The notes beneath the pieces are model-generated. The model saw only the letters and a list, made by a program, of their open reading frames with translations. It was not told the DNA's origin and did no database searches. A stretch of 58,530 nucleotides of DNA from positions 1-58,530 of the forward strand of contig PNMF01000002.1 of the NCBI GenBank assembly GCA_013823485.1, written 5' to 3'. This DNA is from Comamonadaceae bacterium (GTDB lineage: Bacteria; Pseudomonadota; Gammaproteobacteria; Burkholderiales; Burkholderiaceae_C). Made by a program: the position numbers and the translations under genes. Shown piece after piece: positions 696 to 18,084 of the stretch (its first letter is position 1; every line of letters begins with the position of its first letter).

Positions 696-3035
696 ATGAG
701 CAAAAGCGACCAGGAGTCCCGGCACAGGGACGCTGCCACACCGGCAGACGACGAGCGCTGGGTGGGGGACTACTGGGGTGGTCTGCCACCGGAACCAGGA
801 GACCACATGAGCGCAGCCATCCACCCGCACACAGGGAGCCGTGCGGCCGGGACGGGGGTTGACCACCGCCCGGCAGGGCCGGTTGCGGCCGCACAGCCCG
901 GTCCGGAGGCGGCCGAACTGATCGACCAGTCCCACCGCCGCTCGCAGGCCTTCGGCATCGCCGCCCACGACGAACCCGACTTCTCCAGCCCGCGCAAGGG
1001 CGACTTCAGCGATGTGCTGGCCGAGAACCGGTTCCTGTTCCAGCACGCCGCTCCGGTCATGGAGACGCTCTACGACCAGATCGTCAACACCCACAGCATG
1101 GTGCTGCTGACCTCGGCCAAGGGCATGGTGCTGCATTCGCTGGGCGACACGGATTTTCTGGAGAAGGCCTCGCGCGTGGCGCTCATGCCCGGCATGGACT
1201 GGTCGGAGCGCACCAAGGGCACCAACGCCATCGGCACCGCCCTGACCGAGGAAGAAGCCCTCACTGTCCACGGCAGCCAGCACTACCTGGACGCCAACAA
1301 GTTCCTGACCTGCTCGGCTTCGCCCATCTTCGACCCGTATGGCCAGGTGATCGGCGCACTCGACGTGACCGGCGACCACCGCAGCTACCACCAGCACACG
1401 CTGGCGCTGGTGCGGATGTCGGCCCAGATGATCGAGAACCACATGTTTGCGGACATCTTCCCGCAGGCCATCCGCATCCACTTCCACACCCGCTCGGAAT
1501 TCCTGGGCACGCTGGTGGAGGGCATTGCGGTGTTCTCGCAGGAAGGCCGGTTCCTGTCGGCCAACCGCAGCGCGCAGTTCCAGTTCGGTCTGCCCTTCAC
1601 CGCCCTGAAGGCCCACACCTTCTCGTCGCTCTTCGGCATTCCGGTGTCGGCCCTGATCGACCTGTTCAGCGGCGCCATGACCAACCCCCAGCAGCTGGTC
1701 ATGCACAACGGGGTGTCGGTCTGGTGCCGGGCCCGCATCAAGGCCACGCAGCCCTGGTCGGCCAGCGCCACCGGCGCACCGGCTCAGGCGGCACCGCAAC
1801 CGGTCTCGCCGACGGCACCCCAGGGCAACGCTTCCAACACCTCCAACGCTGCAAGCTCTGCCACCGACACCGCTGCCACGCCGCAGGCCACAGCGGCCAC
1901 TTCGCAGACCACCGCTGCCGCCAGCCCGGCGCGCAAGGCGCAGTTTTCATCGCTGCAGTACCTCAACACCGGCGACCCGCAGCTGGCCTCGGTCATCCAC
2001 AAGCTGCGCATGGTGTCGGGCCGCGACATCCCGGTGATGATCCTGGGCGAGACCGGCACCGGCAAGGACCTGCTGGCCCAGGCCATCCACGGCGACTCGC
2101 CGCGCCACGCCCAGCCCTTCGTGTCGGTGAACTGCGCTTCCATCCCCGAGACGCTGATCGAGTCGGAACTGTTCGGCTACGAGGAAGGCGCCTTCACCGG
2201 CGCCCGCAAGAAGGGCGCCATCGGCAAGATCCAGCAGGCCCACGGCGGCACCCTGTTCCTGGACGAGATCGGCGACATGCCCAAGCACCTGCAGGCGCGG
2301 CTGCTGCGGGTGCTGCAGGAGCGCAAGGTGAGTCCGCTGGGCGCCGGCAAGGAGGTCGACGTGGACGTGGCCGTGGTGTGTGCCACCCACAAGAACCTCA
2401 AGGACATGATTGCCCGCGGCGACTTCCGCGAAGACCTGTACTACCGCCTCAACGGCCTGGTGGTGCGGCTGCCGGCGCTGCGCGAACGCACCGACTTTGA
2501 ACTGGTGGTGCGCAAGATCCTGGGCACCCTGTGCGAGAACGGCCGTGAGATCGGCATTGCACCCGACGTGATGGCGCTGTTCCAGCGCTACCCCTGGCCG
2601 GGCAACTTCCGGCAGCTGCACAACCTGCTGCGCACCGCGGTGGTCATGGTGGGCTGCGAAGGCATGATCTGCCGCGACCACCTGCCCGACGACTTCCTGG
2701 AGGAGCTGGCGCAGATCGGCACCGAGGTTGCTGCAACGGCGGCCCCGGCCACCTCGGCCGCCTCGGTCTCCGGCACCGCGACAACCGCCGCGCGCGCAGC
2801 ACCTGAAGCGCCGTACCCGACGTCGCCGGTGGCGGCTGCCAGCCCCGAAGCCGTGCCGGACACCCGCCCCGCCAGCCCGGAAGTGCACAGCCTGCAGGAC
2901 GTGGCCCTGCAGGCCATGGCGCAGATGCTGCGGCTGCACAAGGGCAATGTGTCGGCAGCGGCCAAGGCGCTGGGCGTGTCGCGCAACACCATCTACCGCA
3001 AGAAGGACCTGCTACCGCCCGACCTGCTCAACTGA
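696..3035 (+). CDS. Sigma-54-dependent transcriptional activator (GAF, AAA+, Fis-type HTH)
   Basis: Enhancer-binding activator of the AcoR/BmoR type, 779 aa from the first ATG. A GAF-like sensor occupies roughly residues 90-230. The AAA+ domain has Walker A GETGTGKD near 451, the sigma-54-contacting GAFTGA loop near 500 and Walker [10 protein letters not shown] Fis-type helix-turn-helix ([10 protein letters not shown]) ends the protein. Two long Ala/Thr/Pro-rich linkers flank the AAA+ domain. ATG 807 has a good AGGAG 5 nt upstream and may be the real start (742 aa). The gene sits between two PQQ-related loci and divergent from the cytochrome gene, so it is the obvious regulator of the island. 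Its 3' end overlaps the convergent gene by 24 bp. Confidence 0.9.
797..801 (+). promoter_or_regulatory. Internal Shine-Dalgarno supporting the ATG at 807
   Basis: AGGAG lies 5 nt before an in-frame ATG 37 codons into the activator. The upstream ATG at 696 has only a weaker AAGAGAA. The true start is unresolved, and both could be used. Confidence 0.5.
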
Positions 3036-4046
3036 GGCGGGCGGGGCCGGCGCGGCCCCGGGTGCGGTGGCCTGGTCCATCCACACCGGCTCCAGTTCGC
3101 GCCAGGCCCGCTGGGTGTTGAAGCCCTGGCGCTCGGCGAAACCGGCCCAGCCGGCCCACTCGTCCAGCCTGACCGCCTGCAGCTCGCCAGCGTGCCGGCC
3201 GGCGTCCATGGCGGCCAGCACCCGGCTGCGCAGCGTCTGCAGGTAGAGCTGCGTGGCGTCCAGCAGACCGGCATCGCCCACCCGGGAGCCCACCACCCGA
3301 AGCGGCTGAAGCCGCTGCAGCCGGTCCAGCGCAGCCAGCCACTGCTCCACGCTGCCCTGGGCCAGCTCCGGCAGGCGCCCCCCATAAGCCAGGCCACCGG
3401 CCCACAACACGCGGTGCTGCGGCATCCACAGCACCAGATCGCTGGCGGTGTGGCCCTGTTCGCGATCCAGCACCTGCAAGGTCAGGCGTCCGACGCGCAG
3501 CGCGTCACCGGGCTGCAGCCGGACACCGGGCCAGACGATGGTGGTGCCCGCCATGGCCGCGTCGCCGGCCCGCTGGGTGAGCGACTGCAGGCAGTCGGGG
3601 CAGCGGGCCACCATGGCCTCGCGGGTGCCGGCATCGGCGGCGATCGGCAGGTCGGCAAACGCCGCATTGGCCAGCACGTTTTCGGCATGGGCATGGGTGT
3701 TCACCACCTGCACCACCCGCGCCTTGAACCGGCACCGGATCGAGGCCCGCACCCGCAGGCCGTGCTGCAGGCCGGGCCCGGGGTCGATGACCAGCGCCTC
3801 GCCGCTGTCGACCACGACCGAGGTCGGCGCCACATGGCCCGCATTGGCCGGCGACACCTCTTCATTCGCGCCCTCCCACACCCACACGCCGGGGGCCAGT
3901 TCGCGCCAGGGCACCGGCTCGGCCCGGTCACACGGCGGAGCCGCCACCGGCCCGGCCTGGGCCTTGAACGCCAGCAGCAACGACAGCAGCAACGACAGCA
4001 GCAACGACAGCAGGGGCAGCCTGCCCCACCACCGCACCGCCCTCAT
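3012..4046 (-). CDS. Quinoprotein relay system MBL-fold hydrolase (degenerate metal motif)
   Basis: Exported metallo-beta-lactamase-fold protein, 344 aa, of the type found beside PQQ alcohol dehydrogenases (annotated elsewhere as quinoprotein relay system zinc metallohydrolase). The signal peptide has a repetitive Ser-Leu-Leu-Leu core. The usual HxHxDH site reads HAHAEN here, so the Asp and last His are replaced, and later metal-binding positions (WAGGLA, VVGSRV) also look altered. QGHTASDL keeps one His. Zinc binding may be lost or changed. The ATG overlaps the stop of the upstream hydrolase gene (ATGA), so the two are co-transcribed. The end overlaps the convergent activator gene. Confidence 0.75.
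   Translation of the reverse strand: MRAVRWWGRLPLLSLLLSLLLSLLLAFKAQAGPVAAPPCDRAEPVPWRELAPGVWVWEGANEEVSPANAGHVAPTSVVVDSGEALVIDPGPGLQHGLRVRASIRCRFKARVVQVVNTHAHAENVLANAAFADLPIAADAGTREAMVARCPDCLQSLTQRAGDAAMAGTTIVWPGVRLQPGDALRVGRLTLQVLDREQGHTASDLVLWMPQHRVLWAGGLAYGGRLPELAQGSVEQWLAALDRLQRLQPLRVVGSRVGDAGLLDATQLYLQTLRSRVLAAMDAGRHAGELQAVRLDEWAGWAGFAERQGFNTQRAWRELEPVWMDQATAPGAAPAPPASVEQVGR
3973..4013 (-). repeat. 12-bp tandem repeat inside a signal-peptide coding region
   Basis: Three perfect copies of AGCAGCAACGAC plus 5 nt of a fourth (plus-strand reading). Each unit encodes Ser-Leu-Leu-Leu in the hydrophobic core of the signal peptide. Gain or loss of a unit keeps the frame but changes core length by four residues. 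Confidence 0.9.
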
Positions 4047-5393: not shown

Positions 5394-5450
5394 GTTGCCT
5401 GAGCGGGTCCCTTGCATGGGCCCATTCTGACCGTTGTTCTGACTGCTGAC

Positions 5451-6368
5451 ATGCGCATCCGGGTACTGGGTTCTTCGGCCGGCGGGGGCTTCCCCCAATG
5501 GAACTGCAACTGCGCCAACTGCGCCGGCGTGCGGGCCGGCACACTGAACGCGAGGCCCCGCACGCAGTCGTCGATTGCGGTCACGGCCGACGGCACCGAC
5601 TGGCTGCTGGTGAATGCATCGCCCGATGTGCTGCAGCAGATCCGTGACAACCCCGAACTGCAACCGGCCCGCGCAGTGCGCGACACCGGCATTGCCGCCG
5701 TGCTGCTGATGGACGCCCAGATCGACCATGTCACCGGCCTGTTGATGCTGCGCGAACGCAGCACGCCGCTGCCGCTGCTGGCCACTCCCGAGGTGCTCTC
5801 CGACATCTCGAACGGTTTCCCCATCACACGCATCCTGTCGCATTACTGCGGCATGGCGGCCACCGAACTGCCCATCGACGGCTCTGCGCTGCCGGTGCCC
5901 GGTCTGCCCGGCGTCCAGGTGCAGACCGTGGCCCTGGCCTCGCAACCGCCCCCGTATTCCCCTTTCCGCGGCAGGCCGCGCCCCGGCGACAACGTGGGCC
6001 TGCTGCTGAGCAACCCGGCCACCGGCGCACGGGTCTTTTATGCGCCCGGCCTGGGCGCGGTGTCGGACGAGCTGCTGGCCCTCATGGCCGGCTGCAGCGT
6101 GGTGCTGGTGGACGGCACCTTCTGGACCGAGGACGAAATGATCCGTAACGGCCTGTCGAAAAAACCGGCCGCCGAAATGGGCCACCTGCCGCAGAGCGGG
6201 CCGGGCGGCATGGTGGAGGTGCTGGACCGGCTGCCGGCCACGGTGCGCAAGATCCTCATCCACATCAACAACACCAACCCCATGCTGGTCGAAGACTCGC
6301 CCGAGCGCGCGCTGCTCACGCAGCACGGCATCGAGGTGGCCTTCGACGGCATGGACATCGCTTTCTGA
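5451..6368 (+). CDS. pqqB: PqqB, PQQ biosynthesis MBL-fold oxygenase
   Basis: Cytoplasmic metallo-beta-lactamase-fold protein of PQQ synthesis, thought to hydroxylate the tyrosine ring of the precursor. The 305 aa match the usual family length. The N-terminus [19 protein letters not shown] is diagnostic, with NCNCANC cysteines. ATG 5451 is chosen because it aligns with other PqqB starts; an in-frame ATG at 5412 would add 13 residues inside the post-terminator leader. The gene ends 13 nt before pqqC. Confidence 0.96.
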
Positions 6369-6381
6369 CATCCGACCGTTC

Positions 6382-7113
6382 ATGGACATCGCCCGCACCC
6401 CCCTGCCCGACCCGTCGCTGCCGCCCTGGAGCCGCGAGGAGTTCGAGGCACAGCTGCGCGCCAAGGGGCGCGCGTACCACATCCACCACCCGTTCAATGT
6501 CCGCATGAACTCGGGCGGCTGCACGCCCGACGAGCTGCGTTGCTGGGTGGCCAACCGCTTTTATTACCAGATCTGCATCCCGCGCAAGGACGCTGCCGTG
6601 CTGGCCAACATGCCGGACCGAGAGCACCGCCGCCTGTGGGTCGAGCGCATCCTTGACCACGACGGCCACGGCGACTTCGAGGGATCGAACGCCGGCGGCA
6701 TCGAGGCCTGGACCCGGCTGGGCGAGGCAGTGGGCATCTCGCGCGAGCAGCTGTGGTCGCTGCAGGGCGTGGTGCCGGCGGTGCGCTTTGCCTGCGACGC
6801 CTATGTGAACTTCGCGGCCAGCGCGCCGTGGCAGGAAGCGGTGTGCTCATCGCTCACCGAAATGTTCGCGCCCCAGATCCACAAGGACCGGCTGGCCACC
6901 TGGCCCACCCACTACCCGTGGATCGACGCCGATGGCCTGAGCTACTTCCGCAAGCGCATTCCGCTGGCCGGCCGCGACGTCGACCACGGCCTGCGTGTGA
7001 CGCTCGACCACTTCACCACGCGTGCGGCCCAGCACCGCGCGCTCGACATCCTGCAGTTCAAGCTCGACATCCTCTGGACCATGCTCGACGCCATCGAGAA
7101 GGCGTGCCAATGA
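6382..7113 (+). CDS. pqqC: PqqC, pyrroloquinoline-quinone synthase
   Basis: Cofactor-free oxidase that performs the last ring closure and oxidation to PQQ. It is 243 aa, a normal length, all-helical TenA/PqqC fold. Recognisable blocks are [13 protein letters not shown] near the N-terminus, the ANRFYYQ segment and the [13 protein letters not shown] region. The TGA overlaps the ATG of pqqD (ATGA at 7110-7113), so the two are translationally coupled. Confidence 0.97.
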
Positions 7114-7406
7114 CCATGACTGAACCGACCGAAACGACCGATCTCGCCGATCTGCCCGAACGGCCCCGCCTGTCCCGCCGCTTCCGCCTGCAATACGAAG
7201 AAGCGCAGATGCGCCATGTGCTGCTCTACCCCGAGGGCATGGTGCAGCTCAACGACACCGCCGCCGAGATCCTGAAGCGCTGCAAGGGCGAACACACGCT
7301 CGACGAGATCGTGGCCGATCTGGAAGCCGCCTTCCGCGTGCAGGGCATCGGCCCGCAGGTGCGCCACCTGCTCGAAGAGGGCGTGCGCCGTGGCTGGATC
7401 GAGTGA
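7110..7406 (+). CDS. pqqD: PqqD, peptide chaperone for PqqA
   Basis: Small (98 aa) RiPP recognition element protein that binds PqqA and presents it to PqqE. It has the typical PqqD sequence from [16 protein letters not shown], then [18 protein letters not shown] and a helical end. It overlaps pqqC by 4 nt and ends 4 nt before pqqE. It is a separate polypeptide here, not fused to pqqC as in some methylotrophs. Confidence 0.95.
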
Positions 7407-7410
7407 GGTC

Positions 7411-8544
7411 ATGAACCTCGCGGACCGCCCCGTCGGACAGCCGCTGTGGCTGCTGGCCGAGCTCACCTACAAGTGCCCGCTGCACTGCGTGTTCTGCTAC
7501 AACCCGACGCAGCATGCGCAGGTGACGAACGAGCTGACCACCGCGCAGTGGGTCGACGTGATGCAGCAGGCGCGCAAGCTGGGCGCGGCCCAGCTGGGGT
7601 TCTCCGGCGGCGAGCCGCTGCTGCGCGACGACCTGGAAGAGCTGGTGACCGAGGCGCACCGCCTGGGCTACTACACCAACCTCATCACCTCCGGCGTCGG
7701 CCTGACCGAGGCCCGCGCCCAGCGCCTCAAGGACGCCGGGCTGGACCATGTGCAGCTCTCGTTCCAGGACAGCACCCGCGAGCTGAACGACTTCCTGAGC
7801 CACACCAAGACCTTCGAGCTGAAGCAGAAGGTGGCGCGCATCATCAAGCAGCACGACTGGCCGATGGTGCTCAACTGCGTGCTGCACCGGCACAACCTGC
7901 CGCATGTGGACAAGATCATCGAGATGGCGCTGGCCCTGGACGCCGAATACCTGGAACTGGCCAATACCCAGTACTACGGCTGGGCCTGGGTCAACCGCGA
8001 CCAGCTCATGCCCACGCGTGAACAGCTGCAGGAAGCCGAAGCCGTGGTCAACCGTTACCGCGACAAGATCGGCAACCGCTGCCGCCTGCTCTTCGTGGTG
8101 CCCGACTATTTCGAGGAACGCCCCAAGGCCTGCATGAACGGCTGGGGCGCGGTGTTCCTCTCGGTTGCGCCCGACGGCCTGGCCATGCCGTGCCACAACG
8201 CGCGCAACCTGCCCGGACTGGACCTGCCCAACGTCACCAGCACGCCGCTGGCCGACATCTGGCGCAAGAGCCAGGCCTTCAACGCCTACCGCGGCGAAGA
8301 CTGGATGCAGGAGCCCTGCCGCAGCTGCGACGAGCGCCACAAGGACTTCGGCGGCTGCCGCTGCCAGGCGTTCCAGATCGTCGGCGACGCCGCCGCCACC
8401 GACCCGGTGTGCAGCAAGAGCCCGCACCACGGGCAGGTGGTGAAGCTGGTGCAGCAGGCGCCCGCACGGCGCGAGATACCCATCGTCTTCCGCAGCGACG
8501 CGAACTCGCGCGACCTGCACCCCACGCCGGCGGACGCACCTTGA
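7411..8544 (+). CDS. pqqE: PqqE, radical SAM PqqA glutamate-tyrosine cross-linking enzyme
   Basis: Radical SAM enzyme that joins Glu and Tyr of PqqA. The radical SAM cluster motif CPLHCVFC is near residue 23, followed by GGEPLLR. The C-terminal SPASM domain carries further cysteines (CMNGWG, PCHNARNL, CRSCDERHKDFGGCRC, VCSKSP). ATG 7411 is preceded by GAGTGAGG; an in-frame GTG at 7390 would overlap pqqD and is less likely. It is 377 aa, a normal family length. The last codon overlaps a possible TTG start of the downstream channel-like gene (TTGA). Confidence 0.97.
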   Translation: MNLADRPVGQPLWLLAELTYKCPLHCVFCYNPTQHAQVTNELTTAQWVDVMQQARKLGAAQLGFSGGEPLLRDDLEELVTEAHRLGYYTNLITSGVGLTEARAQRLKDAGLDHVQLSFQDSTRELNDFLSHTKTFELKQKVARIIKQHDWPMVLNCVLHRHNLPHVDKIIEMALALDAEYLELANTQYYGWAWVNRDQLMPTREQLQEAEAVVNRYRDKIGNRCRLLFVVPDYFEERPKACMNGWGAVFLSVAPDGLAMPCHNARNLPGLDLPNVTSTPLADIWRKSQAFNAYRGEDWMQEPCRSCDERHKDFGGCRCQAFQIVGDAAATDPVCSKSPHHGQVVKLVQQAPARREIPIVFRSDANSRDLHPTPADAP

Positions 8545-9314
8545 ACAGCACCGCCCACCATCGCATGCTGGGTGCAGCGGTGGTGCACCGGTTGCCAGGC
8601 CTGCAGCGCAGCCCGTTTGCGCTGGAGCGGGCCGAGAACGGTCTGTTCCTGCTCTGGCTGGCCTGGATGGGCGTGCTGCTGCTGGCCACCTTCCTGCTGT
8701 GGCGGGCCGGGGCCTGGCACCGGCTGGTGGCCGCCGACCCCACCTTCCTCACCGTGGTCATCACCCTGCTGTTCTTCGGCTGCTCGCTGTGGGCCGGCCG
8801 CCGGGCCTGGGTGCTGGGGCAGCAGCGGCAGCAGCTCGATGTGTGGATCGCGCAGGGCGCACCCAGCGGCGCGGGGCCCGACTGGGCCGAGGAATACCGG
8901 CGCGGTTGCGCGGCCCCGGGGGCCGACCGCAGCACCTGGATGCAGGTGCTGGGCGAGCGGGCCCATGGCCCGCACGAGATGGCCTGGTGGCTCAACGGCA
9001 TACAGCTCAAGCTCGGCCTGCTGGGCAAGGTGATCGGGTTCTCGATCCTGGCGCTGCAGCTGGGCGACATGCAGAGCTTCGATGCCAGCCAGTCCAGCCA
9101 GCTGCTCAAGAGCCTCACCGGTGGCCTGGGCATCGCCCTGCTGACCACCGTGACCGGCCTCACCGGCAACATCCTGCTGGGGCTGCAGCTGATGCGGCTG
9201 GACCGCTTTGCCGACGCGCTGGTGGCCGACACCCTGGCCAGCGCCGACCACCCGGCCCCGAACACACCCGCCACCACCGGAGCAGCGCATGGCCATCGGC
9301 CGCCCGGTGCGTGA
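8541..9314 (+). CDS. MotA/TolQ/ExbB-like proton channel protein
   Basis: Inner-membrane protein of about 257 aa with four hydrophobic segments. Two lie close together near residues 36-95 and two after a cytoplasmic loop near 160-220. The last pair, including GGLGIALLTTVTGLTGN, matches the conserved TM pair of the MotA/TolQ/ExbB family. Such proteins form proton-driven stators that energise envelope processes. TTG 8541 overlaps the pqqE stop; ATG 8565 is the alternative and neither has a strong ribosome site. It overlaps the next gene by 26 nt. Adjacency to pqqE is notable: I know of no described ExbB-type partner for PQQ synthesis. The specific function is unknown. Confidence 0.75.
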   Translation: MNSTAHHRMLGAAVVHRLPGLQRSPFALERAENGLFLLWLAWMGVLLLATFLLWRAGAWHRLVAADPTFLTVVITLLFFGCSLWAGRRAWVLGQQRQQLDVWIAQGAPSGAGPDWAEEYRRGCAAPGADRSTWMQVLGERAHGPHEMAWWLNGIQLKLGLLGKVIGFSILALQLGDMQSFDASQSSQLLKSLTGGLGIALLTTVTGLTGNILLGLQLMRLDRFADALVADTLASADHPAPNTPATTGAAHGHRPPGA

Positions 9315-9900
9315 CACCGAGACCGACCCGTTCTACGACATGTTGTTCAACATGTTGATCGCGTTCGTCTTCTGCTTCGTCATCGCCCTGCTGGCCTTCA
9401 ACCCCAAGTCGCGCAAGGCCGGCGACATTCCGGCCAAGGCCGAATTCATCATCACCATCAGCTGGCCCGACGGCAACCCGAACGACATCGACGCCTGGGT
9501 CAACGAGCCCAGCGGCAAGACCCTGTGGTTCCGCCAGCGCGACGCCGGCCTGCTGCACCTCGACCGCGACGACCGGGGTGAGAAGAACAGCAGCGTGCTG
9601 GTGAACGGCCGTGTGGTGAGCAGCCCGATCCGCCAGGAGATCGTCACCGTGCGCGGCATCGCGCCCGGCGAGTACGTGGTGAATGCCCACTACTACGACA
9701 GCCGCGACCAGCAGCCGGTGGACGTGTCGGTGAGCGTGGTCAAGGTGAACCCGGAGGCGCAGATCGTCTTCACCGGCACGCAGCAGATTCCCCGCAAGGG
9801 CGACGAACGCACCCTGGTCCGTTTCACGCTGGACGACAGCGGCAGCGTGACCGACCTCAACACCCGGCCGCTGACCATCGTGCAGCGCACCGGCCTGTGA
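9289..9900 (+). CDS. ExbD-like membrane anchor with YfaP-like periplasmic domain
   Basis: 203 aa with one transmembrane segment near residues 20-37. Just before it, YDMLFNMLIAF resembles the ExbD/TolR helix and keeps an Asp (Asp17) where ExbD carries its proton-binding Asp. The rest is a periplasmic beta-rich domain. Its DIDAWVNEPSGKTLWF segment resembles, by recall, the DxDLHVxxPxGE pattern of YfaP/DUF2135 domains. It is not the usual short ExbD periplasmic domain, so this looks like a domain swap. ATG 9289 has CGGAG upstream and overlaps the channel gene by 26 nt. It probably pairs with that gene as a stator complex; the role is unproven. Confidence 0.65.
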   Translation: MAIGRPVRDTETDPFYDMLFNMLIAFVFCFVIALLAFNPKSRKAGDIPAKAEFIITISWPDGNPNDIDAWVNEPSGKTLWFRQRDAGLLHLDRDDRGEKNSSVLVNGRVVSSPIRQEIVTVRGIAPGEYVVNAHYYDSRDQQPVDVSVSVVKVNPEAQIVFTGTQQIPRKGDERTLVRFTLDDSGSVTDLNTRPLTIVQRTGL

Positions 9901-9931
9901 CCCCCATGACATTTCCCTCGGGCACCGCGCC

Positions 9932-10456
9932 ATGATCCCTGCCGTCTCTTCCCAGCTGCTCCTGCTGGTGATCGTGTATGCCCTGCTGGCCTTCCTGTTG
10001 CTGGTGCTGTGCCTGGCCACCCGCTGGCGCTGGTGGGTCAAGGCCGGCGGCGTGGTGCTGGTGAGTGGGTTCTACCTGCTGGCCCACGGCACCTTCCTGG
10101 GGCTGGCCGGCTGGCCCAGCGACGACCGCCTGCCCGAACGCTTCGTGCTGCTGGCCGCCGTGTTCGACGAACCGAGCCCCGCGCGCGGCCATGCGGGGGC
10201 CATCTACATCTGGGTCAACCCCATGAAGGACAACCAGCCGCTGGCCATGCCGCGGGTGCACCGCCTGCCGTACGAGAAGGACCTGCACCGCATCCTGGGC
10301 GACGGCATCAAGAAGGCGCGCGACGGCAACACCCAGATGGGCAGCACCGAACCCCTCCGGGGCCAGGGCGGCTTTTCGTGGCTGCGCCCGCCCGGCAACG
10401 ACAAGCTGCAGATCAAGCTGAGCGATCTGCCGCGCGCCCAGCTCCCCGAAAAATGA
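9932..10456 (+). CDS. Conserved membrane protein of the pqq-linked module, unknown function
   Basis: 174 aa with two N-terminal transmembrane helices (about residues 8-30 and 37-60) and a soluble C-terminal domain that has no motif I recognise. It starts 31 nt after the ExbD-like gene, and its stop overlaps the lipoprotein ATG (ATGA), so it belongs to the same transcript. The soluble domain contains GAIYIWVNPMKDNQP and ends with a basic/polar tail. It may be an accessory subunit of the channel complex; no function is assigned. Confidence 0.55.
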   Translation: MIPAVSSQLLLLVIVYALLAFLLLVLCLATRWRWWVKAGGVVLVSGFYLLAHGTFLGLAGWPSDDRLPERFVLLAAVFDEPSPARGHAGAIYIWVNPMKDNQPLAMPRVHRLPYEKDLHRILGDGIKKARDGNTQMGSTEPLRGQGGFSWLRPPGNDKLQIKLSDLPRAQLPEK

Positions 10457-11160
10457 TGACCCGCCGCACTGCTGCAGGCGCAGCGCTCCTGCTGCTCACC
10501 GCCACCCTCCTGACCGGCTGCGGCAAGGCCGATCTCGGGCCGGTGTGGTTCCCGCTGAAGGAAGGCGGCTCCATCACCTACGCCATCACCCAGACCGGCG
10601 AGGAAGCGCCGGCGCCCGAAGAGTGGACCCTGAGGGTGACCGCCCCCGCCACGCTGGACCAGGTGCCGGTGGCGGTGCGCCACCATTCGCTCGGGGTGAG
10701 CTACTACCTGCGGCACGACGGACAGGGCCTGCGTCGCATGGCCACGCGCATGGACATCGACGACGAACCCACGCCCGAGAAGGAGCCGCTGTGGGTGCTC
10801 AAGGCGCCCTACACCGTGGGCACCGAATGGACCACGCCCACCGTGCCCTACCTGATCCTGCGCAAGAACGAACACCCGCGCGAACTGCGCTACAGCCACC
10901 GCGCGCTGATGCAGTGGCGCATCGAGGCGGTGGACGACACCGTCACCACCCCCAGCGGCACCCACAGCCCCTGCCTGCGGGTGGTGGGCCGCGCCGAACT
11001 CAACCTCTATACCGATCCGGTCAACGGCTTCAGCAACGTGCCCCTGATCAGCCGCGAGTGGTACTGCCAGGGCGTGGGGCTGGTGAAGTTCGAGCGCGAG
11101 GAAAAGGTGCCGCCGGGGTTCCTGAGCGGGGGCACGCTGAAGGCGGAGGCGGTGCGTTAG
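10453..11160 (+). CDS. Lipoprotein of the pqq-linked module, unknown function
   Basis: 235 aa with a clear lipoprotein signal: basic start MMTRR, hydrophobic core and lipobox LTGC with the acylated Cys near residue 22. The mature part is beta-rich with no recognised domain; two later cysteines (SPCLRV and WYCQG) could form a disulfide. It is translationally coupled to the preceding membrane protein. No outer-membrane-avoidance Asp follows the Cys (it is CGK), so outer-membrane sorting is likely by the usual +2 rule. It could form the outer-membrane end of a channel-ExbD complex, but this is inference. Confidence 0.65.
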   Translation: MMTRRTAAGAALLLLTATLLTGCGKADLGPVWFPLKEGGSITYAITQTGEEAPAPEEWTLRVTAPATLDQVPVAVRHHSLGVSYYLRHDGQGLRRMATRMDIDDEPTPEKEPLWVLKAPYTVGTEWTTPTVPYLILRKNEHPRELRYSHRALMQWRIEAVDDTVTTPSGTHSPCLRVVGRAELNLYTDPVNGFSNVPLISREWYCQGVGLVKFEREEKVPPGFLSGGTLKAEAVR

Positions 11161-12219: not shown

Positions 12220-13941
12220 TTACTTCATGAGCTTGAAGGTCCAGACGGAACCGCCCTGCTCCAGGAAATTCACCTTCTTGGCGACTTCACCGCCCCACAG
12301 GGGAACGGCGCCACCCCAGCCGGAGACCACGCTGACGTACTGCTCGCCGTCCTGCATCCAGGTGATGGGCGGAGCCACCACGCCGGAGCCGGTCTGGAAC
12401 TGCCACACCACCTTGCCGGTCTTGGCATCGGCGGCCTTCAGGAAGCCCTCGGGCGTGCCCCAGAACACCAGGTCGCCGGCGGTCAGCACACCACCCCACA
12501 GCGGAGCGCTGTTCTTGACCTCCCAGGCCACCTTGCCGGTCTTCGGATCGATGGCGCGCAGCGAACCGATGTGGTCGTCAAACAGCGGCTTTATGGTGAA
12601 GCCGGCACCCAGGAAGGCCGCGCCTTTCTTGTAGGTGATGGGCTCGTTCCAGATCTCCATGCCCCATTCGTTGGTCGGCACGTAGAACAGGCCGGTCTTC
12701 GGGCTGTAGGCCATGGGCATCTGGTTCTTGCCGCCCAGGAAGCCCGGTGCCGAGAACACGCTCTTGCCCTTGGTGCCGTCGCCACCGGCGGCGGTCGGGT
12801 CGCCGGGGCGGTTGTCGTCCACGAAGTTCGGGCGGCCGGTCTTGAGGTCGATGCCGGTGGCCCAGGTCACCTTCTTCACGAACGGGAAGGCGTTGACCAG
12901 CTTGCCGGTGGTGGCGTCGTTCACATAGAAGAAGCCGTTGCGGTCGGCCTTGGCGCCCATGCGCTTGCCGTCCATGTCGAAGGTGACGAACTCGTTCACG
13001 CCGTCATAGTCCCAGCCGTCGTTCGGGGTGTTCTGGTAGTGCCAGACGATCTTGCCGGTCTTGACGTCGATGGCCACGGTGGAGGCCGAGTACAGGTTGT
13101 CGCCCTTGCGCACGTGGCTGTTCCACGGGCCCGGGTTGCCGGTGCCGAAGTAGGCCAGGCCGGTCTTGGGGTCGTAGGTGCCGCCAAGCCAGGTGGCCGC
13201 GCCGCCGGTCTTCCAGGTCTCACCCGGCCACGATGCGTTGGTGGTGCCGGAGATGCCGTTTTCCTTGCCGTCCTTGTAGCCCATGTGGCCCTCGACGACC
13301 GGACGGGTCCAGACCATCTTGCCGGTCTTGGGGTCGCGCGCTTCGACGCGGCCGATCACGCCGAACTCGCCGCCGGACACGCCGGTCAGCAGCAGGCCTT
13401 CAGCGATCAGCGGGGCAGCGGTGTAGCTGTAGCCGGCGGAGTAGTCGTCGATCTTCTCGCGCCACACCACCTTGCCGGTGTTCTGATCCAGGGCCACCAG
13501 CTGGGCGTCCAGGGTGCCGAAGATCACCAGGTTGTCGTAGAGCGCTGCGCCACGGTTGATCACGTCGCAGCAGGGCATGATGCCTTCGGGCAAGCGGTGC
13601 TCGTACTTCCACAGCTTCTGGCCGGTCTTGGCGTCCACCGCGTAGATGCGCGAGTAGGAGGCGGTGACGAACATCTTGCCGTTGTGCACCAGCGGCTGGC
13701 TCTGCTGGCCGCGCTGCTTCTCGCCGCCGAACGACATGGACCACACCGGCACCAGCTTGTTGATCGACTTGGCGTTGATGTTGTTGAGCGTGGAATGGCG
13801 TTGGCCCTGGGTGCCCAGGCCCCAGCTCAGCACGTTGTCGGGGGTGTTCGCGTCGTTGGCGATCATGGCGTCGGTGACGCCCTGGGCGCTCACCTGGGCG
13901 GTGGCGGCCAGCATCAACAGGCTCAATAGGGTGCGTTTCAC
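12220..13941 (-). CDS. PQQ-dependent alcohol dehydrogenase, lanthanide-type signature
   Basis: Periplasmic quinoprotein of the methanol/ethanol dehydrogenase family (573 aa, signal peptide ending near VSAQ). It is an eight-bladed propeller with repeated DxKTGKxxW segments. Adjacent cysteines Cys124-Cys125 (MPCCD) form the vicinal disulfide over PQQ. The active-site segment reads GWDYDG (Asp311-Tyr312-Asp313). An Asp two residues after the catalytic Asp is the established mark of XoxF/ExaF/PedH lanthanide enzymes; calcium enzymes have Ala or Ser there. The GTG start has AGGAG 8 nt upstream. A strong sigma-54 promoter and upstream palindrome precede it. Substrate range cannot be read from sequence; a C2 or longer or aromatic alcohol is more likely than methanol. 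Confidence 0.93.
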
Positions 13942-14046
13942 GGTCGGTCTCCTGCTCTTTGGGGGTTGATGGCGGCGACCACGCCCCTGCGCAGCCGCTG
14001 GTGACACCCCGACCCCTTCGGTCCTTGGGTTGCACGCAGTCCCAGG

Positions 14047-14062
14047 GGCAACATCTGTGCCA
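14047..14062 (-). promoter_or_regulatory. Sigma-54 promoter for the PQQ alcohol dehydrogenase operon
   Basis: Minus-strand TGGCACAGATGTTGCC matches TGGCAC-N5-TTGC exactly with correct spacing. Predicted start is near 14036, about 95 nt before the GTG. This is one of the best matches in the window. Confidence 0.8.
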
Positions 14063-14075
14063 GCCGCCGCCCCCC

Positions 14076-14248: not shown

Positions 14249-15211
14249 TCAGCGCGACCGCAGCGCCTGCTGTTCGAAGCGCGGGTACCACTGGGTCAGG
14301 CTGCGGTGCAGCTCGGCCGGCTGGGCGGCCCAGCGGGCAAAGCGCGGCGGCACCGGGGTGCGCAGCAGCTCGCTCAGGTCGACCCCGCGCTCGGCGCTCT
14401 CGCGCATGAGGGTGGTCATCCAGCGCAGCCAGTCGCGGGTCTGCTGCAGGCCGGACAGGCCGATGTGCACCGGACCGTGGCTGGGCACCACGGTGCGGAA
14501 CCGGCCCTGGGCATGCCAGCGCTCCAGCTGGTCCAGGCTGGCCAGCCAGGCGTCGAAGTCGGCATGCGGCGTGGTGGGCACCCGGTCGGCAAACACCAGC
14601 CCGCCGGCATACAGCACGCCGGTGGTGGCATCCAGCAGCACCAGGTCGTCGGCGGTGTGGCCGCTCAGGCGGTGCAGCTCCAGCGTGTGCCCACCGAGGC
14701 GCAGCGTCTGGGGCAGGCGGGCCGGGTCGATCGCCTCGGTGGACGGGGTGGACTCGGTGCCCCTCATCCAGTCGCCACACAGCCGGTACAGGTTGTCGGC
14801 ATAGGCCCGGCCCTCGGCCTGCATGCCGGCGATGCTGCCGGACAGCGCCGCCGTGGGCACGCCGGCCCAGGCCTGGTGGCCGAAGAAATAGTCGGGGTGC
14901 AGGTTCAGGCTCAGCACCCGCTTCACCGGCTGCGGCGTGGCGCGGGCCACCGCCTGCCGCTGCTGTTCGCCGTACAGGCGCGAAGGGCCGGTGTTGATCA
15001 CCCAGGTGCCCTCGGGCGTGGCGATGAAGGCGGTGTTGATGATGTTGCAGCCGTTGGCGCGGCTGAAGTCGTCCACCGCGCCCTCGATCACCCAGGTGTC
15101 GGCCGCCAGTTGCCGCGGCTGCAGGCGGTAGTCGGGCAGGGTGAGGCCGGTCTGGGCCTGGGCCAGCCCGGCCAGCAATGCCAGGCCCAGCACCCCGGTG
15201 CGCAGCCTCAT
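14249..15211 (-). CDS. Quinoprotein relay system MBL-fold hydrolase (second copy)
   Basis: Exported metallo-beta-lactamase-fold protein, 320 aa, signal peptide ending near GLAQA. The canonical HxHxDH motif reads NLHPDYFFGH, so the first His is gone and the last is displaced. SGHTADDL and PSHGPVH retain later histidines. It is more conserved in the C-terminal half than the copy at 3012. The ATG overlaps the SoxYZ-like carrier stop (ATGA), placing it last in the transporter-carrier operon. These hydrolases recur beside PQQ alcohol dehydrogenases and SoxYZ-like carriers; a scavenging or relay role for reactive products is proposed in family annotation but not proven here. Confidence 0.78.
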   Translation of the reverse strand: MRLRTGVLGLALLAGLAQAQTGLTLPDYRLQPRQLAADTWVIEGAVDDFSRANGCNIINTAFIATPEGTWVINTGPSRLYGEQQRQAVARATPQPVKRVLSLNLHPDYFFGHQAWAGVPTAALSGSIAGMQAEGRAYADNLYRLCGDWMRGTESTPSTEAIDPARLPQTLRLGGHTLELHRLSGHTADDLVLLDATTGVLYAGGLVFADRVPTTPHADFDAWLASLDQLERWHAQGRFRTVVPSHGPVHIGLSGLQQTRDWLRWMTTLMRESAERGVDLSELLRTPVPPRFARWAAQPAELHRSLTQWYPRFEQQALRSR

Positions 15212-16011
15212 GCCGACACCTCGGCCCGGATGCGGTTGCCGTTGTTGTCGCGACCGTGCAGCAGCCAGGTGCCCGCCGCCTCGCGTGGCAGCTCCAGCGT
15301 GAGCAGCGGGTTCTCCGACACCGGCTCGTGCAGCGCCAGCCGCAGCCAGGGCTGGCCGCCGGCGTCGTCGAGCTGCAGTTGCTCGATGTAGAAGGCCGGC
15401 ACCCCGGCCACCAGCCCTGTGTCCATCGGGTGCATCACGCGCAGGCGCAGGCGGCGGCTGCCCTCGATGGCATTCGGGAACACGCGGGCCTGCACCTGGT
15501 TCAGGGTGCGGCTCCAGGAGCCGTCGGCCCGGGTGGCGCCGGGCACGGTGCAGCCACCGCCCGCGGCCTGCACCCAGGTGCTGCCCACATGCCATTGACC
15601 GTCGCGCGTGCGCACCATGGCCCGCACCGGCGAAGCCTGCTCCATGCGGATGCGGAACGCCAGCACCGGCAGGGCCCGCAGCGGCTCGTAGGTCAGTACC
15701 TCGCGCACCGGGTTGCGGTCCACCACCACCTGTATCCGGTCCACCCCGCCACCGGTGCCGGCCAGCGCGCGGGCGTCGACCTGCAGCGGCACGTTCATGG
15801 CGTCGTCGGCAAAGGTCGGGCCGCGCACCACCACCTCGGGTGCAAAACGCATCGGCGCCTGCCCGAGGTATTGCTTGCGCAAGGTGGGCCACTGCATGGA
15901 ACCCAGCGGGTCACCGCCGGTGAGCTCGTCGCTGGCGTGCACGCCGCTGGCCAGCATCACGCTGCCGAGCAGCAGGTGGCGGCGGTTCAGGCGATCCGGT
16001 TGACTCGTCAT
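15208..16011 (-). CDS. Quinoprotein dehydrogenase-associated SoxYZ-like carrier
   Basis: 267 aa with a twin-arginine-type leader (LNRRHLLLGSVM). It resembles SoxY and SoxZ fused in one chain. The N-terminal half carries AAGGGCTVPGA, matching the swinging Cys arm of SoxY (GGCGG type) but here internal rather than C-terminal. The C-terminal half is a SoxZ-like immunoglobulin domain (LVAGVPAFYIEQL ... WLLHGRDNNG). SoxYZ carries intermediates on its Cys; here the cargo may be an aldehyde or acyl product of alcohol oxidation. ATG 16011 has GAGGA about 9 nt upstream. It is coupled to the MBL hydrolase downstream. Confidence 0.85.
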   Translation of the reverse strand: MTSQPDRLNRRHLLLGSVMLASGVHASDELTGGDPLGSMQWPTLRKQYLGQAPMRFAPEVVVRGPTFADDAMNVPLQVDARALAGTGGGVDRIQVVVDRNPVREVLTYEPLRALPVLAFRIRMEQASPVRAMVRTRDGQWHVGSTWVQAAGGGCTVPGATRADGSWSRTLNQVQARVFPNAIEGSRRLRLRVMHPMDTGLVAGVPAFYIEQLQLDDAGGQPWLRLALHEPVSENPLLTLELPREAAGTWLLHGRDNNGNRIRAEVSA

Positions 16012-16021
16012 GGCGTTGTCC

Positions 16022-16861
16022 TCAGCCCCCGCCTTTCTGGCGGATGAAGCCGCGCTGCGGGTCGTAGCCCCACAACGCGAGCGCAAAGAAGGCGGCGCCG
16101 CAGCCCAGCACCACCGCCCACGACAGGGCGTTGAGCTGGCCGTACATGGCAAACCGCATGGCCTCCACCGCATGGGTGAAGGGGTTGAACTCGGCCAGCC
16201 GCAGCAGCCAGACCGCGCCCGATTCCTCCAGCTTCCACAGCGGGTAGAGCGCCGGGCTGATGAAGAACATGGGGAAGATCACGAAATTCATGGTGCCGGC
16301 AAAGTTCTCCAGCTGCTTCACATACACCGACAGCATCAGACCCAGCGCGGCCAGCAGGGCTGCACCGGCGGTCATGCCCAGCAGCAGGCCGGGCAGGTGC
16401 AGCAGCGGAATGTCCACACCGAAGGCCCACGCGATCAGCAGGAACACCACCATCTGCAGCACCGACAGCACGGTGCTGGCCAGCAGCTTGAAGCCCAGCA
16501 GCCAGCCGCGCGCCAGCGGTGCGGTGAGCAGCAGGCGCATGACGCCCATCTCGCGGTCATACACCATGGAGAGCGAGCTCTGCATGCCGTTGAACAGCGC
16601 CACCATGCCCAGCAGGCCGGGCACCATGTAAACCTTGTATTCGATGTAGGTCTCGTAGGGCGGGATGATGGCCACGCCGAACACGTTGTGGAACCCGGCC
16701 GAGAACACCACGAACCACAACAGCGGCCGCACCAGGGCCGAACCCAGCCGCGACGGCTGGCGGATGAAGCGCCCGATCTCCCGGCCCACCACGGCGCGCA
16801 GGGCGCGCAGCAGGTGCAGGCCCAGCGACGGGCGGGGAAGGGCCAGGTCGACCGGACTCAT
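16022..16861 (-). CDS. ABC-2 type permease, PQQ alcohol dehydrogenase-associated
   Basis: Integral membrane permease, 279 aa, with about six helices and the ABC-2 signature region (LFNGMQSSLSMVYDREMGVMR, then PLARGWLLGFK). It resembles PedC-type exporter permeases that sit next to PQQ alcohol dehydrogenases. ATG 16861 overlaps the stop of the binding-protein gene (ATGA); an in-frame ATG at 16873 would add four residues. It probably pairs with the ATPase encoded at 19228 on the opposite strand, because no other ABC-2-type ATPase is near. ABC-2 systems usually export, so pairing with a binding protein is unusual. Confidence 0.85.
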   Translation of the reverse strand: MSPVDLALPRPSLGLHLLRALRAVVGREIGRFIRQPSRLGSALVRPLLWFVVFSAGFHNVFGVAIIPPYETYIEYKVYMVPGLLGMVALFNGMQSSLSMVYDREMGVMRLLLTAPLARGWLLGFKLLASTVLSVLQMVVFLLIAWAFGVDIPLLHLPGLLLGMTAGAALLAALGLMLSVYVKQLENFAGTMNFVIFPMFFISPALYPLWKLEESGAVWLLRLAEFNPFTHAVEAMRFAMYGQLNALSWAVVLGCGAAFFALALWGYDPQRGFIRQKGGG

Positions 16862-18084
16862 CGTGCCTTGCATGCGGTCTCCGCTTCATCGACGCCCAGG
16901 GTGTCGAGCACTTCCTTGGGGTGCAGCACCCCGTCCAGCGGGGCCACACCGGCCACGCCGTCGCCGTGCGCCACGAACAGCGGCTGGCGCAGCTGGCCGT
17001 CCCAGGCGCGGAAGCTCAGGCGCGGTCCCTTGAAGCCGTCGATGTAGCTCTGTCCGGTGCGCAGCCGCTGGATGTGCTGGGCCACCGGTGCACGGGGCGC
17101 GTCCACCAGCGCGGCGGCCACCGCCTTGGCGGCCGCCCACGCGGCCCAGTCGTGGCCGAGCATGGGGCGGTTTTCCTGCCTGGCAAAGCGCCGGGTGAGC
17201 TGCGGGCCGCCGTTGCGCTCCCACTGCGGATGCCAGGGCTGCACGGTCAGGCCATTGGCGCCCACCACCGGCCGCGGCCATTGGGTGGCATAGGGCAGCA
17301 GGCGGGCGAACTCGCCGTTGGCGTCCATGACGGCCACCACCTCGTGCTCGCGTTCGCCGGTGAGCAGGCGGGTGTTGGCGAGGTCGCGGTCGCGCGGGTC
17401 TCCGGTGAGCTTGAAGGGCTTCTGTTGCGTCACCTTCAGGCCGTAGCGGCGGGCGCTGCGCTGGAAGGTCTCGGTCTGCAGCGCGTCGGCGGGTTCGGGC
17501 CCGTTGAGCAGCAGCACCTTGCGCCAGTTGCGCGCCGCCAGGTACTGGGCCAGCGCGTCCGACAGCATGGCCCGGCTGGGGTAGGTGTGCAGCAGGTGCG
17601 GGGCGCACTGGGCGCCGCGCAGGCCGTCGTGGTCCAGCCCGGCGTTGATGACCAGCGCGCCGCCCAGGGCGGCCGGTGCGGCCTGCACCAGCTGGCGCAG
17701 CAGCGGCTCGGGCAGGTCGGCCACGATGTGCTGCACCCTGGCCGCCTTGAGCTCGGCCAGCGCCTTGGGCAGGCCGGCGGCGTCGTTGATGAGCAGCTCG
17801 CGCACCGGCATCTCCACACCGGCGGCCTCGAGCTCGAAGGCCGAGTCCTCGGCACCCAGCTTCACACCGTCGATGGCCCGACCGGCCGGGTGCCCGGGGT
17901 AGGCGCGCTCCATGCGGCGGTTGGCGTAACGGGGGTCGTCGGACAGGCCGATGACCGCCAGCGGCACGGTGACCGGCTTGCCGGCGGCCTGCGCCTGTGC
18001 CTGCACCGGCTGCGGAACGAGAGCGAGTGCGAGACCCGACATCAGGGTCGCGCAGAAGAGGGACAACAACAGGGGTGAAGGCAT
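16858..18084 (-). CDS. ABC transporter substrate-binding protein, PQQ alcohol dehydrogenase system
   Basis: Periplasmic binding protein of the branched-chain amino-acid (LivJ-like) fold, about 408 aa, of the type recurrently linked to PQQ alcohol dehydrogenases. The signal peptide ends near VQAQA. Segments such as YANRRMERAYPGHPAGRAIDGVKLG are typical of this subgroup. ATG 18084 is favoured over ATG 18099 because the sigma-54 promoter at 18113-18128 predicts transcription from about 18102, which leaves no room for a leader before 18099. Its stop overlaps the permease start. A much longer open frame extends upstream but lies over a divergent gene and is not used. Confidence 0.85.
   Translation of the reverse strand: MPSPLLLSLFCATLMSGLALALVPQPVQAQAQAAGKPVTVPLAVIGLSDDPRYANRRMERAYPGHPAGRAIDGVKLGAEDSAFELEAAGVEMPVRELLINDAAGLPKALAELKAARVQHIVADLPEPLLRQLVQAAPAALGGALVINAGLDHDGLRGAQCAPHLLHTYPSRAMLSDALAQYLAARNWRKVLLLNGPEPADALQTETFQRSARRYGLKVTQQKPFKLTGDPRDRDLANTRLLTGEREHEVVAVMDANGEFARLLPYATQWPRPVVGANGLTVQPWHPQWERNGGPQLTRRFARQENRPMLGHDWAAWAAAKAVAAALVDAPRAPVAQHIQRLRTGQSYIDGFKGPRLSFRAWDGQLRQPLFVAHGDGVAGVAPLDGVLHPKEVLDTLGVDEAETACKAR

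Follow-up and report, generated by a model that had tools for sequence, protein, structure and literature searches.

The closest described systems to the genes considered here are the motors of the ExbB-ExbD/TolQ-TolR type. The essential Asp of ExbD and residues Thr148 and Thr181 of ExbB are named in PMC12215075. The nearest published relatives, as far as the accessible part of PMC12204202 goes, are von Willebrand factor A (vWA) force transducers that occur with TolQ-like proteins; they are uncharacterised motor-linked periplasmic proteins, one family of which bears an Asp helix. A study of uncharacterised motor homologues has been called for (PMC12505986). Here we analyse four genes, designated Q, R, C and Lp, on contig PNMF01000002.1 of a Comamonadaceae bacterium (assembly GCA_013823485.1, 218 contigs, completeness 88.8%); the 58,530-nt stretch that contains them is called the window. 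All four are genuine genes, conserved and collinear, and in the lineage of the window the module follows PQQ (pyrroloquinoline quinone) use and not PQQ synthesis. We tentatively propose, at somewhat less than an even chance, that Q-R-C is a stator-like family recruited together with Lp to serve a quinoprotein step in the periplasm after PQQ synthesis, the likeliest step being dehydrogenase maturation. The genes are as follows.

8541..9314, + strand: Q, a MotA/TolQ/ExbB-like membrane protein (TTG start; PF01618 below cut-off; related to TolQ/ExbB by hhalign)
9289..9900, + strand: R, one transmembrane helix with Asp17 and a periplasmic beta domain (AlphaFold model, conserved Asp; DUF2135-like, borderline)
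9932..10456, + strand: C, a membrane protein with two transmembrane helices and, in the periplasm, a small alpha/beta domain (AlphaFold model, alignment)
10453..11160, + strand: Lp, a lipoprotein, DUF3108-like at low score (lipobox LLTGC followed by G)

A scan of GTDB genomes gave at least 379 confirmed loci, and the best 80 of these, mostly Burkholderiales by title, are referred to as near loci. The 32 distant loci comprise 30 of the 33 out-of-genus places in the class sample and two from the relatives sample. Q, R and C had the same order and strand in all 80 near loci, in 8/8 same-genus loci and in 26/32 distant loci, and because of this collinearity the four-gene arrangement cannot be put down to chance. 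Lp directly followed C in 78/80 near, 8/8 same-genus and 6/32 distant loci. R itself was present in 20/60 relatives, 31/274 class genomes and 16/398 phylum genomes (the last by profile). The window closely resembles Hydrogenophaga sp. IBVHS2, and R is 100% identical in the two. Two genomes of about 1 Mb (L078 and L081 in G200 and G313) carried Q, R and a shorter, diverged C; they have no PqqE. The sequence-only reading of the window described overlapping stops and starts throughout the set. Three of the four junctions do overlap, namely pqqE/Q, where the TTG start of Q overlaps the pqqE stop (8542-8544), Q/R (26 nt) and C/Lp, but the term is not valid for the whole set because R and C are separated by 31 nt.

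The evidence for a link with PQQ use came from 49 carrier genomes, obtained from 50 chosen among the 80 near loci with isolates first. A PQQ-dependent alcohol dehydrogenase (TIGR03075 over cut-off) was found in 48/49 and PqqE in only 32/49, so that the module follows use and not synthesis. Eight of the 17 carriers without PqqE are isolates (Limnohabitans, Rubrivivax, Curvibacter, Paucibacter and Pelomonas), and the others are metagenome-assembled genomes, in which absence is weaker evidence; G547 (completeness 100, apparently corresponding to L110) likewise has no PqqE. Thus the module is not restricted to genomes that make PQQ, as a member of a PQQ biosynthesis operon would be, whereas the co-occurrence expected within a PQQ alcohol dehydrogenase cluster is seen both in the flanks (50/80 near loci) and in the genomes. 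The tight coupling to PQQ enzymes supposed in the sequence-only reading therefore stands for the alcohol dehydrogenases and falls for synthesis. Of the functions it had offered, which were movement of PQQ, metal or an assembled quinoprotein or help with cofactor insertion, the movement of newly made PQQ is disfavoured because the link is with dehydrogenases, while insertion of cofactor or metal stands as a possible role.

The association was also seen in the class, genus and phylum samples. In the class sample (n = 274) PqqE exceeded its cut-off in 21/31 carriers against 17/243 other genomes (Fisher's test, 5e-14), and TIGR03075 reached E<=1e-60 in 23/31 against 26/243 (1e-13). Counted by family, PqqE occurred in 14/20 carrier families and 14/~151 others and TIGR03075 in 16/20 and 20/~151 (Fisher's test, 1.7e-9), the number of non-carrier families being taken from sequential family labels. 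Within the genus PqqE was present in 18/18 carriers and 3/18 others, and in the phylum sample in 13/16 and 58/382, respectively.

The flanks of the near loci agree with this picture. A PQQ dehydrogenase, pqqC or pqqE was found in 54/80, with pqqC and pqqE in 17/80 each. Any quinoprotein marker at all was found in 71/80, of which nine had just a PqqB-like gene and six just a generic periplasmic binding protein. Among the nine markerless loci, six are shorter than 12.5 kb. A PedF-type cytochrome query, itself over the PedF cut-off, matched 44/80. The gene pqqE stands immediately before Q in 8/8 same-genus loci and 14/80 near loci, and it lies within the flanks of 17/80 near and 1/32 distant loci. 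Homologues thus occur mostly away from pqqE, contrary to the proposal that the module is tied to the pqq operon. The dehydrogenase beside the module showed the motif WD[YF]DG in 44/50 near loci, and of the six in which this motif was not found four lie at the end of a locus or contig; among the distant loci 4/5 dehydrogenases beside the triad showed WD[YF]DGVNE. The extra Asp is a mark of lanthanide dehydrogenases (PMC11996626, PMC5487730), and on its motif the dehydrogenase served is probably of the lanthanide type.

In the window itself the module lies between PQQ synthesis genes and genes of a quinoprotein alcohol dehydrogenase cluster:

5412..6368, + strand: pqqB (TIGR02108, 402 bits, cut-off 245)
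6382..7113, + strand: pqqC (TIGR02111, 321 bits, cut-off 240)
7110..7406, + strand: pqqD (TIGR03859, 87.5 bits, cut-off 46)
7390..8544, + strand: pqqE (TIGR02109, 535 bits, cut-off 381; stop 8542-8544)
12220..14064, - strand: PQQ-dependent alcohol dehydrogenase, motif WDYDGVNE (lanthanide-type D-x-D; TIGR03075, 756 bits, cut-off 480)
14249..15220, - strand: quinoprotein relay system zinc metallohydrolase 1 (TIGR04558, 390 bits, cut-off 300)
15208..16047, - strand: quinoprotein dehydrogenase-associated SoxYZ-like carrier (TIGR04557, 226 bits, cut-off 140)
16022..16873, - strand: PedC-type alcohol ABC transporter permease (TIGR03861, 345 bits, cut-off 241)

A further metallo-beta-lactamase-fold protein, related to the quinoprotein relay metallohydrolases and below their cut-off, is encoded at 3012-4046 on the minus strand.

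None of Q, R, C and Lp matched a Pfam or NCBIfam model over its cut-off, and no model that would name them was found in Pfam, NCBIfam, PHROGs or PADLOC; matches to PHROGs were weak and unnamed, the best being that of R to an unnamed family (E 4e-4). By profile comparison, however, Q is a remote relative of MotA, TolQ and ExbB. It scored 15.5 bits against PF01618 in a Pfam search (cut-off 22.9) and was not among the PF01618 matches in a profile search of its own genome, and a sequence search of solved structures returned nothing. A profile of 27 Q sequences aligned with one of 14 TolQ/ExbB sequences taken from relatives over 74 columns that cover two channel helices (hhalign E 2.2e-8, probability 95%). 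The description of the set as a module related to ExbB/ExbD that has no family name is borne out.

The AlphaFold model of R (mean pLDDT 78) comprises a helix at residues 14-37 followed by ten strands. Asp17 (codon 9337-9339) falls in register with the Asp of ExbD, although the alignment (hhalign E 0.13) is not significant. This candidate proton-binding residue is indeed kept: it is D in 80/80 near, 8/8 same-genus, 28/32 distant and 4/14 phylum-sample loci and in 58/59 viral rows, a set which includes phages P10VF and 16-3 twice (once per collection) and near-identical contigs. The replacements are Ala in L065, L067, L073 and L074 and Val in ten loci of one family from another class (f225, L192-L201). 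In L065 and L192 a Lys stands four residues after the lost Asp position, and L065, L067, L073 and L074 have two C genes each. The f225 loci form a separate group in the phylum sample with a kinase/regulator pair beside Q-R-C in 9/10, and all ten genomes have PqqE. The proposal that R joins an ExbD-like helix to a YfaP/DUF2135-like domain holds for the helix. The resemblance of the periplasmic domain to DUF2135 is borderline (hhalign E 1.7e-4 and probability 50% against an alignment of just four DUF2135 rows; no Pfam match), and the head is not of the ExbD type. With no PF02472 match in Pfam and hhalign at only E 0.13, R was rejected as a member of ExbD/TolR. A sequence search of solved structures gave two weak matches (E 0.03 and 0.3), and at E<=0.001 a fold search with the model found nothing in the PDB. 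Against viral models it gave five matches at this threshold, four unnamed and one to an uncharacterised Campylobacter phage protein; these had TM-scores of 0.33-0.39 by query length and were not used as evidence.

The model of C (mean pLDDT 84) shows two membrane helices together with a small alpha/beta domain, in keeping with the description of C as a two-helix membrane protein; its relatives share the conserved motifs GWP and PR, and a fold search found no PDB counterpart at E<=0.001. Lp matched Pfam DUF3108_like below cut-off (E 0.024 in the window, 3.8e-5 in the relative L070). The residue that follows the lipobox Cys bears on the sorting of lipoproteins to the outer membrane. It is G in the window, whereas 11/78 relatives have D; in 7/78 a lipobox was not found. 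Hence Lp is a lipoprotein whose sorting to the outer membrane is not secure, and of the span from inner membrane through periplasm to outer membrane envisaged for the set the last part is uncertain. Seven distant loci possess Lp, six downstream of the triad and one on the other strand. A quinoprotein marker was present in five of these seven and in 0/25 distant loci without Lp (Fisher's test, 1e-4). Lp thus marks the quinoprotein setting.

The reading that we tentatively prefer is that Q, R and C would form stator-like complexes of the inner membrane, a new family with kinship to ExbBD and TolQR. By homology a ring of Q would surround a pair of R, possibly in a 5:2 assembly. The R helix would carry the ion-binding Asp, with the beta-domain head in the periplasm; C would be a third membrane subunit, the complex may draw on an ion gradient, and partner genes would vary with the setting. 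In the lineage of the window the complex may have been recruited together with Lp, as a putative contact partner, to serve a periplasmic PQQ-dependent and probably lanthanide-dependent alcohol dehydrogenase. The step served would come after PQQ synthesis and would most likely be maturation, that is, the loading of PQQ and metal into the apo-enzyme. Maturation is favoured because the module accompanies the dehydrogenase whether or not the genome has PqqE. Proteins of the MxaJ/XoxJ/PedG type have been proposed to aid PQQ and metal insertion (PMC12997753), and NorQD offers a precedent for energised metal insertion (PMC9976466). The way in which PQQ and lanthanide enter periplasmic dehydrogenases is not settled, and here is a four-gene set that tracks the dehydrogenase and not PQQ synthesis. 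We know of no energised machine that has been assigned to this loading.

Several observations weigh against such a role. The association at genome level may partly reflect shared ancestry, which the counts above do not fully remove. PQQ alcohol dehydrogenases can evidently mature without the module, because 26/49 class-sample genomes that have one lack R. One of the five distant dehydrogenases, that of L060, has no WD..GVN-type motif. The periplasmic binding protein common in the clusters matched no MxaJ or PedG model, only amino-acid binding proteins below cut-off, and was rejected as MxaJ-like. A review of the Pseudomonas ped genes has no mention of ExbB, a lipoprotein or a membrane protein. 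The R Asp is lost in 4/32 distant and 10/14 phylum-sample loci, the Lys at the ExbB Thr148 position in the window clade may block ordinary proton passage, and phage and some chromosomal triads have no PQQ setting.

These other settings show that the triad is not confined to a pqq context, as had been supposed: the core Q-R-C triad is wider and occurs in gammaproteobacteria-class loci with an L,D-transpeptidase and in tailed phages. Among the 32 distant loci a YkuD L,D-transpeptidase was present in 12, DUF302 in 12, vWA in 11 and quinoprotein markers in five. A vWA gene often comes after a distant triad, with YkuD L,D-transpeptidase and DUF302 genes upstream; in L059 a protein with vWA and FHA is encoded after the triad (7079-8677, minus strand). 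By hand tally, PqqE was present in 14/15 genomes whose triads have YkuD, DUF302 or vWA neighbours and in 2/9 whose triads lie in no recognised setting. R matched 27 phage records, all of Rhizobium or Sinorhizobium phages, with 34-37% identity among the 20 matches listed; the R of L203 as a second query gave nine records, phage 16-3 included. Q and C homologues stand beside R in phages 16-3, P10VF, RHph_N3_19 and NV1.1.1, and hhalign comparison of bacterial profiles with profiles of these four phages alone gave E 2e-10 for Q, 6e-45 for R and 5e-8 for C. The phage genes (L204 7259-9120, L205 7537-9041, L206 7646-9022, L207 5579-8034) are annotated as hypothetical or by number. In IMG/VR R led to 55 loci, mostly predicted viral contigs, with all three genes in 44, R and Q in five, R and C in five and R alone in one. 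A gene for a trypsin/HtrA-like protease lies upstream of Q in 16-3 and NV1.1.1 and was not seen there in P10VF and RHph_N3_19. The triad of L203 (8611-10602) lies, as judged by eye, in a prophage-like stretch and adjoins genes for a trypsin-like protease and lysis-type functions.

This range of settings bears on the main rival, in which Q-R-C is a general, Tol-like motor acting on the envelope (peptidoglycan or outer membrane) that in the lineage of the window would be co-expressed with alcohol oxidation so as to protect the envelope, with Lp as anchor and with the quinoprotein not its target. It takes this place because it also covers the phage and L,D-transpeptidase settings. One role would fit all the settings, including the L,D-transpeptidase and vWA genes of the distant loci (with FHA in L059), the protease genes upstream of Q in 16-3, NV1.1.1 and, by eye, L203, and the lipoprotein of the window. 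Against it stand the strong links of the module with PQQ dehydrogenases, seen both at the loci and across genomes, and a Pfam search found no peptidoglycan-binding domain in R; on balance we consider it rather improbable.

The phage triads also pose a question of their own, namely what need tailed phages have for an ExbB/ExbD-like complex with a conserved Asp. A tree of R was built from 100 of 193 rows after those more than 82% alike with the same setting had been dropped. The PQQ setting did not form one clade: setting labels changed 13 times against a mean of 28.1 after shuffling (0/500 as low), a count to which truncated contigs add false changes. One branch (99/98) held 63 chromosomal rows. 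The chromosomal L082, L083, L085, L202 and L203 fell among phage rows, and phage rows lay on both sides of the midpoint root; phage branches are long. A bolder version of the preferred reading would make Q-R-C a separate ion-driven motor branch of phages and proteobacteria, possibly phage-derived, which became coupled through a lipoprotein to lanthanide quinoproteins and mechanically aids PQQ and metal insertion. We think it unlikely. If true, it would be, to our knowledge, the first force-driven periplasmic cofactor-loading machine and the first phage-carried motor of such kind. What can be said plainly is that the module is more general than first supposed, that its PQQ link is one of use and that its phage branch is unexplained.

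The channel residues bear on whether the complex of the window clade is a motor. In window Q, Lys163 (codon 9027-9029) occupies the position of ExbB Thr148, and Thr202/Thr203 are kept, so that of the two channel threonines only that at the Thr181 position is present. In readable rows of the aligned columns, 72/78 near loci have Lys and 6/78 have Thr at the Thr148 position, where 8/8 same-genus loci have Lys and 31/31 distant loci have Thr; the viral rows, with the duplicates noted above, have Thr in 39/54, Asn in 13 and Ala in two. The Thr181 position is Thr in 77/77 near, 8/8 same-genus, 31/31 distant and 53/54 viral rows. A possible explanation for this pattern is that Q-R of the window clade no longer conducts protons and that a ring of Lys pairs with the R Asp, leaving a scaffold or a switched channel. 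The concentration of Lys in the near and same-genus loci points in this direction. However, the R Asp is kept in 80/80 and the second Thr in every readable near locus, and the six Thr-type near loci (L165, L169-L173) have the same gene order as the Lys type. We regard a lost or gated motor as quite unlikely. For the Q-R-C family as a whole an ion-driven function is likely on the residues conserved; it is least certain in the Lys-bearing window clade and in the two R groups without Asp. The term proton motor, as first applied to the module, is uncertain for the window clade, since Lys replaces the channel Thr.

As a role for the complex, PQQ uptake comes next after envelope protection because of the receptors in 20/80 near loci and the orphan PqqB-like genes. 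The complex would then power entry of PQQ or of a lanthanide carrier through an outer-membrane receptor, in the manner of ExbBD-TonB and perhaps with the PqqB-like enzyme. In L084 a TonB-dependent receptor gene (6383-8698) lies directly before Q; its product shows weak similarity to PqqU, far under the PqqU cut-off, and relatives of it are found in those 20 loci (19 without one weak match). A PqqB-like gene without pqqC directly precedes Q in 9/80 near loci, and in four of these cases the genome lacks PqqE; that of L145 (8410-9342) is over the PqqB cut-off, and its genome shows no PqqE. The lack of PqqE in 17/49 carriers also speaks for uptake, and E. coli imports PQQ by PqqU (PMC12124388). 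Against this, the flanks examined contain no such receptor in 60/80 near loci, the SHLS motif is absent from 20 C, 27 Q and 32 R sequences, and carriers that make PQQ keep the module too, so that we judge uptake decidedly doubtful. Export of new PQQ from cytoplasm to periplasm, with a Lys ring favouring the anion, would suit the position of pqqE directly before Q in the window, 8/8 same-genus and 14/80 near loci, but is very improbable and was rejected as the main reading because 17/49 carrier genomes lack PqqE, and 17/38 PqqE-positive class genomes lack R.

A search of the titles and abstract openings of the open-access literature found no paper dealing with the triad or with a motor linked to PQQ genes, and the accessible parts of PMC9389320 and PMC12505986 contain no mention of PQQ or of a phage-encoded motor. 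With the ExbB-ExbD/TolQ-TolR (5:2 motor) superfamily the module shares the profile relationship of Q, the order of A-subunit before B-subunit gene, the helix Asp of R at the ExbD position and the Thr of the last channel helix in Q. It differs in that Q is under the PF01618 cut-off, R has no PF02472 domain and a head unlike that of ExbD or TolR, a third subunit C is present and Lys takes the Thr148 position in the window clade. Membership among the TonB/TolA transducers was rejected on the absence of the SHLS motif from the sequences counted above. The vWA transducers differ in their heads, since R has no vWA match, and PMC12204202, in its accessible part, describes neither a C subunit nor a PQQ link. 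Q is weakly similar to ZorA of Zorya at the channel helices (E 0.05-0.18); it is far under the NCBIfam cut-off and has 257 residues where the ZorA models have 461-648 positions, R has no ZorB-type match, and R, C and Lp had no PADLOC match at E<=1, so that Zorya membership was rejected as well. The phage genes 16-3 p038/p040/p042 and P10VF_191-193 are homologous in all three subunits and keep the R Asp, but unlike the bacterial module they have no Lp or PQQ genes among their annotated neighbours. Finally, the module shares its neighbourhoods with the quinoprotein-associated genes (TIGR04557, TIGR04558, PedF cytochrome, PedC); the products of these genes are soluble or of the ABC type, whereas Q-R-C is predicted to form a complex in the membrane.

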